Virus record (IMG/VR): IMGVR_UViG_3300036820_000631
Coordinates: 1 to 41,059 of that record
Strand: one strand, 5' to 3'
Source: a virus
DNA length: 41,059 nt
Numbering within the stretch: the stretch's first letter is position 1; each line of letters starts with the position of its first letter. Both the position numbers and the translations under genes were made by a program. The notes beneath the pieces are model-generated. The model did not search any database. It worked only from the letters and a program-made list of their open reading frames with translations, and was not told the DNA's origin. Below, piece after piece: positions 3,370-30,774 of this stretch.

Positions 3370-4038
3370 TCAGAACTGGCGAATGCGATTGACCACGCCG
3401 GTCGCGGTGTTCGCCCACGCCTCGCCGTAGTTTTTCTCGTAGTTGTTCACAATCACAAAAACCCGCTCGACCACCTGGCAGGTCGGGAAGGTCTGCATGC
3501 AGGGCGTCGGCTGCGTCGATCCGCACTGCACGCTCGACCAGCGCCACTGGCAGATCTCGCAGAGCTGATAGGGCGGCGCAGCGTCCTGGGACGGGTCGTT
3601 CAGCTGCTTCAGCGTGAGACTCACCTTCTCGGGATTGCTGTCATCCACGCTGAGCGTCCCGTGAAACTCAAGCTCGGCCGCCTGACCGCCGGCGTTCCAT
3701 TCGCGGTAGACGCACAACGCACCTTCAAGCACTGTTCGGCGCGCGATCTTTTGAAAGTCCGACTGCAGTGTGTCGCCGCTCAGGTTCTGCAGCTGCACAC
3801 TGCCGCTGTCGGTCTTCATCGAGCGGTTGAAGGTGAACTGCGGCGCGCTGAGAATCCACGGCAGATATAGATTCGAGGCCGATCCGCCATCCCCCACGAT
3901 GACGCTGGGAGCGACCAGGGGACGGCTTCCCCAGTAGTAGCAGTTCCCGTTCGGGTCCTCGACGTCGAGCAGGTAGGCATTCGCGATGCCCGTGTGCGCG
4001 AGAGAGGATTTCTGGATTGCCTGAGTCCAGGGGATCAT
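3370..4038 (-). CDS. Minor tail protein, gpL / DUF2163-like, with C-terminal Cys cluster
   Basis: A protein of 222 aa from the ATG at 4038. That start shares an ATGA overlap with the preceding gene and has GGAG nine bases upstream. A longer in-frame start at 4071 exists but lacks these signs. The N-terminal half is β-rich. The C-terminal part has clustered cysteines (CEIC, QCG, PCM, TCQ), reminiscent of the metal- or iron-sulfur-binding C-terminus of λ gpL and of DUF2163 tail assembly proteins. Those proteins cap the tail tube beneath the host-recognition protein. The position just before the tip protein and after the distal tail protein fits. Family assignment is by pattern and context, so moderate. 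Confidence 0.55.
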   Translation of the reverse strand: MIPWTQAIQKSSLAHTGIANAYLLDVEDPNGNCYYWGSRPLVAPSVIVGDGGSASNLYLPWILSAPQFTFNRSMKTDSGSVQLQNLSGDTLQSDFQKIARRTVLEGALCVYREWNAGGQAAELEFHGTLSVDDSNPEKVSLTLKQLNDPSQDAAPPYQLCEICQWRWSSVQCGSTQPTPCMQTFPTCQVVERVFVIVNNYEKNYGEAWANTATGVVNRIRQF

Positions 4039-16127: not shown

Positions 16128-16164
16128 TTCATCCGCCCGCTCCCGAGGGCCGCGGGCGGATGAA
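16128..16164 (-). terminator. Strong hairpin between the ChaB-like gene and the protease-capsid gene
   Basis: A perfect 13-bp stem (TTCATCCGCCCGC with its complement) and an 11-base loop lie in the 101-base gap upstream of the protease-capsid start. There is no following T-run on either strand. It could be an attenuator, an RNA-processing site or a weak terminator that separates packaging from head expression. Confidence 0.4.
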
Positions 16165-25811: not shown

Positions 25812-26111
25812 TTATCCGGGAAGGTGGGTCACGATGAACCAAAGGATGGCGCCCACCAGGGAGAACAGCATCATGCCCCAGAAGACTCCGCCGATGATGG
25901 TGCCCATGCGAACCACAGGGAGCGGAGCCACCCGCACATCATTCAATGGGGCTGACGAGTCGGCGGATCCGTTCAGGGAGACGGGATCGCCGGAGCTCAC
26001 CGGGAGCGACGCTGGCACCGATCTTGCCGCGAACACCTTCCCGAGAGCCCATCCAATAATCCCCAGCCCCACGATCGTGACAAGCACTCCCATGATGGCC
26101 TGAGACGTCAT
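25812..26111 (-). CDS. Two-transmembrane-helix small protein coupled to the repressor
   Basis: A protein of 99 aa from the ATG at 26111, which overlaps the repressor stop as ATGA. Residues ~3-25 and ~70-95 are strong membrane helices (around VLVTIVGLGIIGWALG and FWGMMLFSLVGAILWFIV), with a Ser/Pro-rich loop of ~40 residues between. Because it is translationally coupled to the repressor it should be made in the lysogen. That makes a superinfection-exclusion or membrane immunity role more likely than a lytic holin. I do not recognise the family, so both remain open. Confidence 0.65.
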   Translation of the reverse strand: MTSQAIMGVLVTIVGLGIIGWALGKVFAARSVPASLPVSSGDPVSLNGSADSSAPLNDVRVAPLPVVRMGTIIGGVFWGMMLFSLVGAILWFIVTHLPG

Positions 26112-26923
26112 GCTCGCTTCCTCAGCTTTCTGGCGATCTCTGCGTTCCGCGGAAGCTCTTCCGGGGGCGCGGGTGTATCGACGATCCATTTTATGATGCG
26201 GCCGACGATGCTGCCTTCACCGCTGTGCCGCAGGACCTGCGCGCCTGCGCCCGCCTGAAGCGAATCCAGGAGATAGGTCGGACCGTCCTTGCGCAGCGTC
26301 ATAGGCTTGAGGCCGCCGTCGGAGCGGATCGCCACAACGCAGCCGACAAGCCGATCCGGGTCACGACGATTCACGTCGATTAGCCCGATCAGGTCGCCCT
26401 GGATAAAGAGCGAGCCCGGATTAGGAAAACGTGCCGCTTGAATGAATCCATGATCCGGCATCCACTCGGGCAGCAGGGGGAGCATCGCTTCAACATTGCC
26501 GGGGAGCACCGCTTCTCTCGTACCTACTTTCGAAGGAATCCTGATAAGCGGAATCGTAGGTACTGACGGCTGCGCAGGCAAGTCCTCAATAGTTCCTGCC
26601 CCGCTGTTACCTTTGGGGAGTGCCCGAGCGATCGTCGCGGTGGCAGCGTGGAGCATCTCGGGGAGCATCGGATCCCCCATAAAAAAAGCATCCGGGACGC
26701 CGGCTTTCTCAAGGAAGAAGAGCTTCATCGCCCCATCTGAAAGGCGCGCGAGGGCCACCATCATTTCGGGAAGTGGACGAGCACGACCAGCTTCCCACTT
26801 CGAGACCGACGATGGCACGGTGCCCAGTCGGGCCGCAAATTCCGTTTGATTAAGGCCGAGCTGCTCCCGCAGTTCGCGGATGCGTCGGCTTACCTGCGGG
26901 TCAGCTTTCTCTTTAGGGTGCAC
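26108..26923 (-). CDS. Phage repressor: XRE-type HTH with S24/LexA-like C-terminal domain
   Basis: A protein of 271 aa from a GTG at 26923, preceded by AAGGGA at good spacing. Upstream in-frame codons reaching 27199 overlap the opposite-strand regulator and are rejected. Residues ~10-58 are a classical XRE helix-turn-helix (around RELREQLGLNQTEFAARLG and SSVSKWEAG). The C-terminal ~110 residues have the β-rich S24/LexA-like fold: an FIQGDLIGLIDV strand, a VGCVVAI strand and an IVGRIIKWI end. The expected catalytic Ser-Met-x-P turn before the GD motif is not present (it reads NPGSLFIQGD), so self-cleavage is doubtful. It should bind the dyad at 26941-26972 and shut off the rightward early promoter. 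Confidence 0.82.
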   Translation of the reverse strand: MHPKEKADPQVSRRIRELREQLGLNQTEFAARLGTVPSSVSKWEAGRARPLPEMMVALARLSDGAMKLFFLEKAGVPDAFFMGDPMLPEMLHAATATIARALPKGNSGAGTIEDLPAQPSVPTIPLIRIPSKVGTREAVLPGNVEAMLPLLPEWMPDHGFIQAARFPNPGSLFIQGDLIGLIDVNRRDPDRLVGCVVAIRSDGGLKPMTLRKDGPTYLLDSLQAGAGAQVLRHSGEGSIVGRIIKWIVDTPAPPEELPRNAEIARKLRKRA

Positions 26924-26931
26924 GTTTTCCC

Positions 26932-26961
26932 TTGACACGGTTGTGAAATCAAGAATATTCT
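26932..26961 (+). promoter_or_regulatory. Rightward early promoter
   Basis: TTGACA (26932-26937) and TATTCT (26956-26961) with an 18-base spacer make a good σ70-type promoter reading toward the Ner-like gene. The expected start point is about 26968-26970, only a few bases before the ATG at 26972. It overlaps the repressor ribosome-binding site on the other strand and the operator dyad. Confidence 0.6.
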
Positions 26962-26972
26962 CGCTTTCACAA
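26941..26972. promoter_or_regulatory. Operator: 32-bp dyad between repressor and Ner-like gene
   Basis: The outer half-sites TTGTGAAA (26941-26948) and TTTCACAA (26965-26972) are perfect inverted repeats. At exactly the same centre (26956.5) sits a 10-bp palindrome AGAATATTCT (26952-26961). In total 28 of 32 positions are symmetric. The dyad covers the -10 and spacer of the rightward promoter, the classic place for a repressor or Ner/Cro-type operator. Confidence 0.75.
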
Positions 26973-27187
26973 TGCCGTTCATTACCACCCGTGATTTTAC
27001 GCAGATTCGGGCCGAACTCCAGAAGGCGGCCCGATACAGGGGCCTCTACACCCGAGTCGCAGGGCGTTTGGGGATCACGTCGCAGCATGTCAGGGAAGTC
27101 GCTCACGGGCGCAGGCAGTCGCGGCGCGTCGAGCAGGCGATCGAACAGGAGTTTCGAAAGATCGTCGGCAAGGAGCGTGTTGCGTGA
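26972..27187 (+). CDS. Ner/Cro-like small DNA-binding regulator
   Basis: A protein of 71 aa divergent from the repressor and first gene of the early operon, the position of ner in Mu. The centre is a helix-turn-helix (VAGRLGITSQHVREVAHGRR) flanked by basic helices. The C-terminal EQEFRKIVG segment is shared with the third gene of this operon, so the two are paralogues. No Shine-Dalgarno sequence precedes the ATG and the predicted transcript start is only a few bases upstream, which suggests a leaderless mRNA. It likely down-regulates the early and repressor promoters during lytic growth. It overlaps the next gene by GTGA. Confidence 0.7.
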   Translation: MPFITTRDFTQIRAELQKAARYRGLYTRVAGRLGITSQHVREVAHGRRQSRRVEQAIEQEFRKIVGKERVA

Positions 27188-27669
27188 GGCGTAGTTCATC
27201 GCAGGCCCAACCTAGCCCCGGAGTACAAGGGTCGCCAATAGGAAAACCGTCACAAAATTTTCCCCGTCAGCAGCCGCTTTCGTTCGAGCCCGGAGACGAA
27301 AGCCTGAACGACGATGCGCTTGTCCGGGCGACGATCTCCGCCAGCATCAGGGCCTGTAGCCTGAGCCGCGTTCAGATCGCGGACGCCATGACGCAGCTCC
27401 TTGGCGTCCGCGTTACTACCAAAATGCTGAACAACTACAGCAGTGAGGCGATGCAGCCCTATCGCTTCCCGGCAGCGTGGGATCGCGCATTTTGCCGCGT
27501 CACCTCCGAAAACAAGCTGCTGACCTGCCGCGCAGAGCGAGCGGGGTTCTTCGTGATATCCGCAGAAGAGCAGGACATCCTCGAACTCGGCCGGCAGTAC
27601 CTGATTCGCAAGCGCGCGGACGAGCAGGCCCAGCTCCTCGAAAAACGGCTGGAGGGAGCTGATCTGTGA
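27184..27669 (+). CDS. Early regulatory-like protein, unrecognised
   Basis: A protein of 161 aa with a GTG start overlapping the Ner-like stop (GTGA) and AAGGAG eight bases upstream. The N-terminal ~40 residues are disordered (Ser/Pro/Gln-rich). Residues ~50-85 predict a helix-turn-helix-like region (LSRVQIADAMTQLLGV, then TTKMLNNYSSE). The C-terminal helix is charged (EQAQLLEKRL). The presence between two Ner-like paralogues and before the transposase suggests a role in early control or target choice. I do not recognise a named family. Confidence 0.6.
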   Translation: MRRSSSQAQPSPGVQGSPIGKPSQNFPRQQPLSFEPGDESLNDDALVRATISASIRACSLSRVQIADAMTQLLGVRVTTKMLNNYSSEAMQPYRFPAAWDRAFCRVTSENKLLTCRAERAGFFVISAEEQDILELGRQYLIRKRADEQAQLLEKRLEGADL

Positions 27670-27902
27670 ATATCCCCGCGCTCTTTTCTTTCCTCCGCCG
27701 GCCGGCACCGGTGATCGACTGCCGCTCCACTCTCCAGCTAATGAATCGCCTCTATGGAATTTACTCCGTGGTCGGCCGGGAGCTGGGCGTCACTTCACAC
27801 CACGTCAAACAGGTCGCTCTCGGAAGACGAAAATCGGCTGAGGTGATGGCTGCGGTCGAGCGTGAATTCCGTCGGATCGTCGACGCGGAGGCCGCCGATT
27901 GA
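27666..27902 (+). CDS. Ner-like regulator paralogue
   Basis: A protein of 78 aa starting with GTG in a GTGA overlap, with GGAGGGA eight bases upstream. The C-terminal ~45 residues match the first early gene closely: LGVTSHHVKQVALGRRKS against LGITSQHVREVAHGRRQS, followed by EREFRRIV against EQEFRKIV. The N-terminal ~25 residues differ. This looks like a tandem gene duplication with one gene in between. It could bind a related operator or form heterodimers with the first copy. It overlaps the transposase start by TTGA. Confidence 0.65.
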   Translation: MNIPALFSFLRRPAPVIDCRSTLQLMNRLYGIYSVVGRELGVTSHHVKQVALGRRKSAEVMAAVEREFRRIVDAEAAD

Positions 27903-29752
27903 GCGCGGCCCGCAATCTGGTTCCCTTTAAGCTCCCCGGCGAACAGGGGGTTCTATCCCTTCCTCCTATCGCCGGGGTTTCCGGGGCGAATGACGCTCCG
28001 GACGTTCCTGTGCGCGCGCTGCTCGTCAACTCCGCGGATGAGCAGTGCGCCCTTGAACGCCTGGCAATCCTCCGTCCCCTCCTCGATTTTGAGGACGATC
28101 CGGCCCTCTTCGCCCAATCCAAGAATCAGATCGTCGCCACGCTGTGCACGAAAAACCGACTCTGCCGCCGGACTATTTTCGACTGGCAGCGCCGGTACCG
28201 TGAAGGCGGCCTGGCCGCTCTTGCCGATCGCCAGCGTGCGGACAAGGGCAAGTCCCGGTGGTTCGGCGCCAACCAGCAGGCAGCATGGGTCGCGGCATAT
28301 CTCCACCTTGAATGCCGGCAGAGCTACCGCGCGGTGCACGAGGCGCTGGTCGAGAACCGCGAGCTGCTGGAGCTGGCCGACCTTCCTCACTACGACACGG
28401 TGCGCTCCTGGCTCGGCTCGATGCCACGTTGCCTGCGCGCTTACGCACTGAAGGGCCGCCGCGTTTACCAGGAGCGCATGGCGCCCTATGTGAGCCGCGG
28501 CTACGCCGATGTCGCCAGCAATCAGATCTGGGTTTCCGACCACGCCATCCACGACGTGGAAGTGATGAACGACTGCTTTCCGGAAGCCGAGTGGGGCGCT
28601 CCGCTACGCCTGCGGTTCACCTGCCTGCTCGACTTCCGCAGCCGCTACGTGGTGGGCAGCAGCTGGTGCTGGGAAGGCAGCTCGCACTCGATCGCGACGG
28701 CCCTGCGCCGCGCCATCGGCGTCCACGGCGCCTGCCAGCACTTCTACTGCGACAACGGTAAGGACTACCTCAGGGTGGCGAAGGGCGCCGTTCCCGCGTA
28801 TCTGATCGATCCGGAAGAGGTCCGCGGCTGGCACGAGCGCGAGCTGGCCCAGATCGAGCGCGTGGGCGTGCTGGCGCGGCTCGGGATCCGCGTGACGCAT
28901 TGCATCGTGCGCCATCCGCAGTCGAAACACGTCGAGCGCTTCTTCCGCACGATGCACGAGCAGTTCGACCGCCGCTGGCATCAGCACTACACCGGAGGCG
29001 CTCCGCACCTGCGCCCCGACGCCACCGCGGCCGCCATGATGCTGCACCGCAGTCTGCTGAAGCATGGCCGCGCCGCCAGCTCCACGCACCCGCCGGCTTC
29101 GGCCTTCATTGCGCTGTGCATGGAGTGGATCGAGGAGTATAACCACCGGCCGCACAGCGGCCGCGGCATGGACGGGCGTACGCCGGCCGACGTTTTCGCG
29201 GAGCGGTCGATCGAGGAGCGCAGCGCGGACCCCAACGCGCTGGCGCTCCTGCTCGAAGAGCACACGCGGCGCAGGGTGCGCGAATGCTCGGTGGAACTGG
29301 AGAAGCGGCGCTTCACATTCTTCGACGATGCCTCCCGCGACACCCTGCACCAGCTCAACGACACCAGCGTGGTGGTGGCCTACGACGCGAACGATCTCGA
29401 CTCCGTCGCCATCCTTGACGACGCCGGCCACTTCCTCACCTGGGCTAAGCCGGAGAGCTACCTGCGCATGGATCCGGCCGATCCCGAGACGCAGCGGCAG
29501 ATCGCGCAGTCGATGGCGGATCGCCGCCATCTCGAAAAGCAGACACGGAACGCGCTGGCTCTGATCAGCCGCACGGCGCGGGCCATCGGAGCGAAGACTC
29601 CGGTCGAGGCGATGGCCGATCGCGCCTCACTCGTCCCGGTCATCGAATCAGCCCTTACCCACCGTTCCCCAAAACTAAAACCCGCGAGCGATGCGCAGGC
29701 GCCGGCGAGCGCCGCGGACATCGCCGCCAGCGTACTGGAGGCCCTGAAGTGA
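27899..29752 (+). CDS. Mu-type DDE transposase (MuA-like)
   Basis: A protein of 617 aa beginning with TTG in a TTGA overlap and GGAGG seven bases upstream. N-terminal helices around residues 80-100 (NRLCRRTIFDWQRRY) form the DNA-binding HTH region. The RNase H-like core shows the catalytic triad Asp ~214 (WVSDHAIHD), Asp ~285 (FYCDNGKDY) and Glu ~346 (SKHVERFFR), with 71- and 61-residue spacings. The segment around EYNHRPHSGRGMDGRTPADVF is the usual MuA-like region after the core, and a β-barrel domain follows. The helical C-terminus is Ala-rich and is expected to contact the ATPase encoded next. It cuts and joins the phage ends for replicative transposition. It is slightly shorter than MuA (663 aa). 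No disruption is seen. Confidence 0.92.
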   Translation: MSAARNLVPFKLPGEQGVLSLPPIAGVSGANDAPDVPVRALLVNSADEQCALERLAILRPLLDFEDDPALFAQSKNQIVATLCTKNRLCRRTIFDWQRRYREGGLAALADRQRADKGKSRWFGANQQAAWVAAYLHLECRQSYRAVHEALVENRELLELADLPHYDTVRSWLGSMPRCLRAYALKGRRVYQERMAPYVSRGYADVASNQIWVSDHAIHDVEVMNDCFPEAEWGAPLRLRFTCLLDFRSRYVVGSSWCWEGSSHSIATALRRAIGVHGACQHFYCDNGKDYLRVAKGAVPAYLIDPEEVRGWHERELAQIERVGVLARLGIRVTHCIVRHPQSKHVERFFRTMHEQFDRRWHQHYTGGAPHLRPDATAAAMMLHRSLLKHGRAASSTHPPASAFIALCMEWIEEYNHRPHSGRGMDGRTPADVFAERSIEERSADPNALALLLEEHTRRRVRECSVELEKRRFTFFDDASRDTLHQLNDTSVVVAYDANDLDSVAILDDAGHFLTWAKPESYLRMDPADPETQRQIAQSMADRRHLEKQTRNALALISRTARAIGAKTPVEAMADRASLVPVIESALTHRSPKLKPASDAQAPASAADIAASVLEALK

Positions 29753-30774
29753 CCACCGTGAAGAGGCCGAGCAGGACAGAGCAGATCCCGGTGCGCATCG
29801 CCGCGCTGGCCCCTACTGCTAAAGAGCGCAGGGAGACCATCGCCGAGGTGCGGGACTATCTCGCGCGCACCGGTCTTCAGACTGCCGATTTTGCCCGCCA
29901 TATCAACTACGCCACGTCCACCATGGGGCTGTTCCTCGCCGACAAATATCACGAGGTCGGCGGCGACGACAGCAACATTCGGCGGGCGGTGCGGGATTTC
30001 ATGGCCGCCCATCCGATCGAAGCGCCCACGCGCGTGGCCGGCGACCTTTACGACACGGAGAATACCCGGCGCATCCGCGAGACCTTCCAAAAGCTGTTGC
30101 CGCGGCCGGTGGCCTACGTGATCTACGCTCCACCCGGATCGCAGAAGACCTTCGCTCTCGAAAACGAGCTGGCCCGCTTCAACCGCGAGGAGATCGGGAA
30201 AAACGGCCATGGACGCCGCGCGTACTACGTTTACGCGCGCCAGAACCTCAAGCCGCGCGATCTGATGCGCCGCATCTGCATCGCCTGCGGAGTGCCTGCC
30301 AGCAGCGAGATCGACCGCATGCTCGCCAACCTGCGCTTTCAGTTCCGCTCGCGCCGCGTGCTGCTGATCGTCGACGAAGCCCAGCATCTCGAAATCGAAA
30401 GCCTTGAGACGCTGCGCGAACTGCTCGACCAGCCTCCGCACATAAGCCTGCTGTTCGCCGGCTCCCACGATCTCAAGGAGAAGTTCGATCGCTTCTCCGC
30501 CACGCTCGAACAGTGGAACTCGCGCATCATCGCCAAGGTTCGCCTGCCGGGCCTGCAGCGCGAAGAGGCCGAGGGCATCATCCAGCGCGAGATCGGCGAC
30601 CTGCTGGCAAAGCTGCCAGCGCCGCGCGCCCAGAAAGTCGTCGAGTCAATCATTGCCCAGTCGACCACCCGCGACGCGTTCGAGAAGGGACGCACCTACA
30701 TCAACGTCCGCACGCTCACCAACGCGCTGTGGCAGACCCGCGCGGCCGCAAACGAGAAAGAGGCAGTCGCATGA
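29749..30774 (+). CDS. MuB-like AAA+ transposition ATPase
   Basis: A protein of 341 aa with a GTG start overlapping the transposase stop (GTGA). The N-terminal ~90 residues contain a helix-turn-helix (TADFARHINYATSTMGLFLA), as in MuB. The AAA+ core has a Walker A variant (APPGSQKT, residues ~127-134) and a Walker B (LLIVDEAQHL, ~205-214). A sensor-type Ser-His pair (FAGSHD) and an arginine-containing C-terminal part follow. MuB-type proteins form filaments on target DNA, deliver it to the transposase and provide target immunity. The C-terminus (EKEAVA) lies in a 22-bp direct repeat shared with the next gene. Confidence 0.9.
   Translation: MTTVKRPSRTEQIPVRIAALAPTAKERRETIAEVRDYLARTGLQTADFARHINYATSTMGLFLADKYHEVGGDDSNIRRAVRDFMAAHPIEAPTRVAGDLYDTENTRRIRETFQKLLPRPVAYVIYAPPGSQKTFALENELARFNREEIGKNGHGRRAYYVYARQNLKPRDLMRRICIACGVPASSEIDRMLANLRFQFRSRRVLLIVDEAQHLEIESLETLRELLDQPPHISLLFAGSHDLKEKFDRFSATLEQWNSRIIAKVRLPGLQREEAEGIIQREIGDLLAKLPAPRAQKVVESIIAQSTTRDAFEKGRTYINVRTLTNALWQTRAAANEKEAVA
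30753..30774 (+). repeat. 22-bp direct repeat, left copy
   Basis: This sequence, beginning CGAGAAAGAGG and ending GCATGA, is repeated exactly at 31013-31034, 260 bases away. It encodes the last residues of the ATPase plus the ATGA stop/start junction. Confidence 0.85.

Follow-up and report, generated by a model that had tools for sequence, protein, structure and literature searches.

A 32-base site at positions 26941-26972 of the window (the 41,059-base viral record of a transposable, Mu-like phage) is probably the on/off switch of that phage, at which the repressor would sit to silence the early lytic promoter. Comparison of about 25 relatives shows the site to change with the repressor and not with the small second regulator, and we have good, though not complete, confidence that it acts as a single repressor operator by which the early promoter is shut off. 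What the sequences show directly is the palindrome, its recurrence in relatives, its joint variation with the repressor HTH and the layout of the promoter; from these we infer binding, repression, stoichiometry, the transcription start and leaderless translation, as follows. The XRE/CI-type repressor would bind both outer TRTGnAA half-sites as a two-fold symmetric assembly and so cover the spacer, the -10 hexamer and the start of the rightward promoter, which would keep the transposase genes off, along with those for the CII-like and the small helix-turn-helix (HTH) regulators. When repression is lost, the promoter would make an mRNA whose 5' end lies only a few nucleotides from the ATG.

The probable operator palindrome

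The site is a single, gapless inverted repeat with 14 of 16 positions paired per arm. The original prediction described an outer pair of half-sites and an inner palindrome nested on one centre (26956.5), together covering the spacer and -10 hexamer of a TTGACA/TATTCT promoter. All of these coordinates were verified (Table 1). The two parts are matched blocks flanking two mismatched positions, and they are more simply described as one inverted repeat. When the full 41-kb window was shuffled 200 times, 18 of the shuffled sequences contained a 14/16 palindrome (gap 0-3), whereas 20,000 shuffled versions of the 101 bp around the site contained none; a palindrome of this kind is thus not very rare by chance in the window as a whole but is rare at this place. 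The real evidence for the putative operator is its conservation across relatives rather than these shuffle statistics; homologous sites back the compact operator that had been predicted on the rightward early promoter. No second site like it occurs elsewhere within the window. A G+C-rich 14/16 palindrome (TCATCCGCCCGC...GCGGGCGGATGA) at 16129-16163, between two leftward genes, is terminator-like.

Table 1 Features of the switch region and early operon (positions in the window)
Feature	Position	Strand	Evidence
XRE/CI-type repressor, 271 aa, GTG start	26108-26923	-	Pfam HTH_3 1.2e-12; PHROG transcriptional repressor
Repressor Shine-Dalgarno AAGGG, 5 nt before GTG, overlapping the rightward -35	26929-26933	-	Sequence
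-35 TTGACA of the rightward early promoter	26932-26937	+	TTGAC at the same place in relatives
Putative operator palindrome, TTGTGAAATCAAGAAT followed by ATTCTCGCTTTCACAA	26941-26972	.	Inverted-repeat search, shuffles, conserved in relatives
Left outer half-site TTGTGAAA, putative repressor half-site	26941-26948	+	Changes together with the recognition helix of the repressor
Inner palindrome AGAATATTCT, overlapping the -10	26952-26961	.	Two-fold symmetry in 12 concentric operators
-10 TATTCT after an 18-bp spacer, forming the inner palindrome's right half	26956-26961	+	Counterparts in relatives
Right outer half-site TTGTGAAA (+ strand: TTTCACAA), putative repressor half-site	26965-26972	-	Same covariation
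Small HTH protein, 71 aa, "Ner-like" in the original prediction	26972-27187	+	Three predicted helices, mean pLDDT 76
Transcription regulator, PHROG 2345, weakly CII-like	27184-27669	+	phrog_2345 6e-21, phrog_101 0.0019
Paralogue of the small HTH protein	27666-27902	+	45% identical to the 26972 protein
Mu-type transposase A	27899-29752	+	Pfam Mu-transpos_C; phrog_310 1e-72
Transposition protein, B-type AAA ATPase	29749-30774	+	phrog_296 3.9e-30

Conservation of the site in related switches

Relatives were sought by three routes: through the transposase (blind to the site), through a DNA half-site pattern, and through the repressor (blind to the operator). Relatives found through the transposase have TTGAC in the equivalent gap, and most of them also have a dyad there. 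At the homologous spot, locus L005 has a perfect 30-bp palindrome (TATGAAAGTGAGAATATTCTCACTTTCATA), and L006 and L012, also found by this route, retain the outer arms. The DNA scan required TTGAC plus the outer arms, with the inner palindrome outside the pattern, and covered 2.9 million viral contigs; it returned three more homologous switches (L031, L036, and L054) with inner palindromes GCATTATGC. The exact full 32-mer had no match in the viral contigs, whereas the looser half-site pattern did. Repressor-based searches added L064, L066, and L068, with arms TTGTGnAA/TTTCACAA. Outer half-sites of the form TRTGnAA/TTTCAYA surround a common centre in eight loci besides L005.

Across 12 aligned concentric operators, the symmetric positions, counted from the outside, are 2-5, 7-8, 11, and 13-16, and positions 9, 10, and 12 are free. 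Two versions of the inner part occur: in one, GAATATTC, the arms are separated by 16 bp, and in the other, GCAT-T-ATGC, by 17 bp, so that the arms move with the centre.

One further locus, L048, fits the DNA pattern (TTGAC plus TGTGAAA/TTTCACA arms on its reverse strand at ~318, beside an unrelated small HTH gene). It was left out because it lacks homologues of the repressor, the small HTH protein and the transposase, and its match is attributed to coincidence or convergence. Other layouts also occur in this family of switches. L084 has a perfect 26-bp palindrome (ATGACACTCGTATATACGAGTGTCAT, rightward strand) over the homologous promoter and carries a further, different repressor, and L010, L081, and L087 have short 13-bp dyads in two copies that flank the -35.

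Probable reading of the outer arms by the repressor

That the outer arms are read by the repressor, as originally proposed, is supported by their covariation with its recognition helix. Repressors whose recognition helix begins with PS[SAN] go with TTGTG arms in 7/7 loci (the window, L031, L036, L054, L064, L066, and L068), and within the TRTGnAA operator family the QG/QT repressors go with TATG arms in 3/3 (L005, L006, and L012). As a simple count that ignores relatedness, this split has a probability of 1/120. L015 breaks the rule: its QG repressor is close to that of L005, but it has another operator without TATGAAA arms.

Matrix comparisons point the same way. Over 26 loci, operator similarity follows that of the repressor HTH when the small HTH is held constant (partial Mantel r = 0.58, P 0.0002); the converse gives r = 0.11 (P 0.12). 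When the two loci known from the operator pattern alone are set aside, the remaining 24 give r = 0.53 (P 0.0002) between operator and repressor HTH and r = 0.24 (P 0.005) between operator and small HTH. The operator-small HTH association is thus weaker than that with the repressor but above zero, and the loci share ancestry, for which Mantel tests do not correct.

Natural swaps of the two regulators also occur. L036 and L069 have similar small HTH proteins (similarity 0.85) but different repressors, and their operators match at 14/36 positions against a background mean of 15.4; the L064/L069 match is also 14/36, as in random pairs. The reverse swap is seen in L006 and L036, where the small HTH similarity is 0.44, the repressors are similar and the operators match at 30/36. 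L012 and L096 have near-identical small HTH proteins and different repressors, and their operators differ in both outer and inner parts. Together with the Mantel results, these swaps support reading by the repressor. The opposite assignment, in which the small HTH protein reads the outer arms, was rejected, since L015 and L069 have an L036-type small HTH yet other operators.

These ~25 related switches, with their varied operators and repressor helices, form a natural code-breaking set that ties the residues PS[SAN] versus QG/QT to the half-sites TTGTG versus TATG. Such a code, together with a constant operator geometry, makes repressor specificity and superinfection immunity predictable, and testable on small DNA fragments, in phages of the Acidobacteria, a poorly studied group.

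Repressor domains and operator geometry

The N-terminal XRE HTH of the repressor is recognized both by Pfam and by the 434 and P22 repressor sequences. Its AlphaFold model matches lambda CI and LexA with E values of 1e-6 to 1e-4, and the predicted C-terminal fold is of S24 type (Foldseek: lambda CI 3bdn 5.4e-6, LexA 5.7e-6). In the alignment the Ser-Lys dyad is absent from the window repressor, and the motif GDSMxP...K is present in L064, L084-L088, and L014. Since it lacks both catalytic residues, the window repressor is unlikely to undergo RecA-stimulated self-cleavage, and induction must presumably proceed by another route.

Measured between their centres, the half-sites lie 24 bp from each other, which is more than two helical turns. 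A single 434- or P22-type HTH dimer spans less than 24 bp, and the spacing is therefore a counterpoint to the repressor-operator reading. One HTH type and one operator are combined with three C-terminal domains: a dyad-lost S24 domain in L036, an intact S24 domain in L064, and, in both L066 and L031, a short helical domain that is unrelated. Since operator geometry stays constant while the C-terminal domain is swapped among three types, the half-site spacing is set by the N-terminal part of the repressor. More widely, repressors of this phage group (L036, L064, L066, L031, L005, and others) carry one of the three C-terminal domains behind the same HTH. This distribution points to SOS inducibility having been lost or swapped more than once.

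Alternative readings of the inner palindrome and of the site

The original prediction assigned the inner palindrome to a second, Ner-like protein that would compete with the repressor for one site. The Ner identity was a positional label only: neither Pfam, NCBIfam nor PHROG gave a Ner family match for the small HTH protein, its predicted fold had no significant PDB match, and its relatives match YdaS, P22_Cro, and HTH_3 weakly. At most it is a small Cro/YdaS-like HTH protein. Concentric binding of repressor (outer arms) and small HTH protein (inner palindrome), together or in competition, would make a 32-bp two-protein switch in which the N-terminal module of the repressor fixes the outer geometry whatever the C-terminal domain. 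Some arguments favour it: the inner symmetry exceeds what a -10 hexamer requires, a residual operator-small HTH correlation persists (r = 0.15-0.24), and switches of the Mu, lambda, and B3 types normally have their small lytic regulator acting close to the early promoter region. The distribution of inner sequences does not fit. L005 and L006 have identical small HTH proteins, but their inner sequences are GAATATTC and GCATTATGC; near-identical small HTH proteins accompany unrelated operators (L036 and L064 versus L069, L012 versus L096); and the same inner GAATATTC lies beside different small HTH proteins in the window, L005, L070, and L096. These comparisons weaken the two-protein reading, which we regard as doubtful.

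Another possibility is that the operator consists of the outer arms only; the inner palindrome would then be no more than the -10 hexamer, made symmetric by chance or by common descent. The inner right half is indeed the -10 (TATTCT or TATGCT) in concentric operators, and L012 keeps the outer arms without a clear inner palindrome. Yet the left half, GAGMAT, is dispensable for a promoter, and inner symmetry is nevertheless kept in 11/12 concentric operators at positions 13-14 and in 12/12 at positions 15-16, with position 14 changing from A to C on both arms together. We consider this explanation unlikely, although it is the likeliest of the alternatives weighed here. The inner part does not follow the recognition helix strictly either, since the window and L068 share PSSVSKWEAGR and differ in their inner sequences. 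As it follows neither protein strictly, we treat it as part of the site of the repressor assembly or of its DNA shape. Inner contacts by the repressor assembly, or a required DNA shape, are the more likely source of the symmetry than a separate Ner-type reader.

Two further readings were weighed. An RNA hairpin in the repressor leader is very unlikely to be the main role of the palindrome. The leftward RNA does fold well (32 nt, -12 kcal/mol, z -4.9; in L005 -16.4, z -7.6), and a promoter further upstream drives repressor transcription during lysogeny of a B3-like phage (PMC9936078). However, such folding is expected of any DNA palindrome, the Shine-Dalgarno is unpaired in the predicted fold, and L064, L066, and L068 each have a left-arm mismatch at position 6, with C or G opposite A. 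Use of the TTGTGA/TCACAA arms by a host Rex- or CRP-type regulator is more improbable still. The half-site equals that of Staphylococcus aureus Rex, whose operator is reported as TTGTGAAW4TTCACAA (PMC2883068), but the arms are spaced here by 16-17 bp instead of 4, and across loci they follow the phage repressor and differ between phages.

Promoter and translation starts

TTGACA-N18-TATTCT, together with an overlapping reading with a 16-bp spacer, is the sole sigma-70-like match on its strand between 26000 and 28000. TTGAC is kept at the same place in every relative examined except L091, and the -10 hexamers of relatives read TATTCT, TATGCT, or TAGTCT at spacers of 16-18 bp. The start codons of the divergent genes (repressor GTG at 26923, small HTH ATG at 26972) lie 48 bp apart. 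The repressor Shine-Dalgarno (minus strand, 26933-26929) shares the first two bases of TTGACA; the original prediction had placed the repressor ribosome-binding site immediately to the left of the site and put the decision region at under 60 bp. The overlap, as CTTGAC, is found in 24/27 loci (CCTTGAC in 13/27). A leftward promoter using the inner -10 was rejected for want of a -35 at the proper distance; a weak leftward candidate (TGGAGT-16-TAAAAT) lies at 27021-26994, and no clear leftward promoter was found at the operator.

The small HTH gene has no Shine-Dalgarno, and its ATG lies 11 nt past the end of the -10 and ~3 nt past the predicted transcription start. No other standard in-frame start was found ahead of its HTH in the window, L005, or L006, and the neighbouring cii, tnpA, tnpB, and 27666 genes carry AAGG or GGAGG. 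The mRNA of the small HTH regulator is therefore likely to be leaderless or nearly so. Leaderless genes are used by Acidobacteria (mean 13% in three genomes; PMC3160421). Other relatives, L031, L036, L064, and L012 among them, differ in that the small HTH gene has a Shine-Dalgarno and starts downstream of the operator. In L002 (~3840-3930) and L003 (~3580-3660), no clear start codon opens the repressor frame at the place of the window's GTG, and the ATG-TAG that comes after the Shine-Dalgarno is one frame off.

Phage, host and comparison with known switches

The early region has the layout of a Mu-like switch: the repressor and small HTH genes diverge, and the rightward operon includes transposase A and B. 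Leftward of the repressor lie terminase, portal, head, and tail genes, all on the minus strand. Relatives come from metagenomic viral contigs and from two metagenome-assembled genomes (MAGs), an Acidobacteriaceae bacterium and a Terracidiphilus sp.; these two loci were reached with the repressor profile against genome contigs, where the transposase profile had no match. The regulator was found in 16/399 genomes from the class of the Acidobacteriaceae bacterium MAG, and the host of the phage is accordingly most likely an acidobacterium. Searches with the repressor and P0003 by tblastn against phage records gave no match, nor did P0003 as a single query against viral contigs, and the transposase is 22-29% identical to those of known phages among the matches listed.

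In gene order (repressor on the minus strand, promoter in the divergent gap, then small HTH, regulator, and transposase A and B), the switch resembles those of Mu and B3. In the B3-like phage Fc02, a distal promoter, pC1, feeds the repressor in lysogeny and the divergent genes are 106 bp apart (PMC9936078). The lack of a clear leftward promoter at the operator in the window is reminiscent of that arrangement; however, the window has the shorter gap and one operator, its small protein has no Ner match, and the C-terminal part of its repressor is of LexA/CI type. With lambda CI/LexA-type systems it shares an HTH joined to a predicted S24-type fold and a dyad operator over the lytic promoter. Lambda has several 17-bp operator sites, whereas here there is one site of 30-33 bp, and the window repressor lacks the catalytic Ser and Lys. 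The telomere phage PY54, in which leaderless cI and cro mRNAs have been mapped, likewise has a single operator, but this is a 16-bp palindrome upstream of cI bound by Cro (PMC4488713), not a 32-bp site on the lytic promoter. The CI-MOR switch of TP901-1 has a composite operator with sites side by side (OM1-OM2-OR-OM3; PMC7250872); a composite site for two regulators was proposed for the window as well, but with concentric palindromes, whose reading by a second protein is doubtful.

The paralogue at 27666-27902 is a second, divergent copy of the small HTH gene just ahead of the transposase, and extra copies are also present in L064, L081, and L096.
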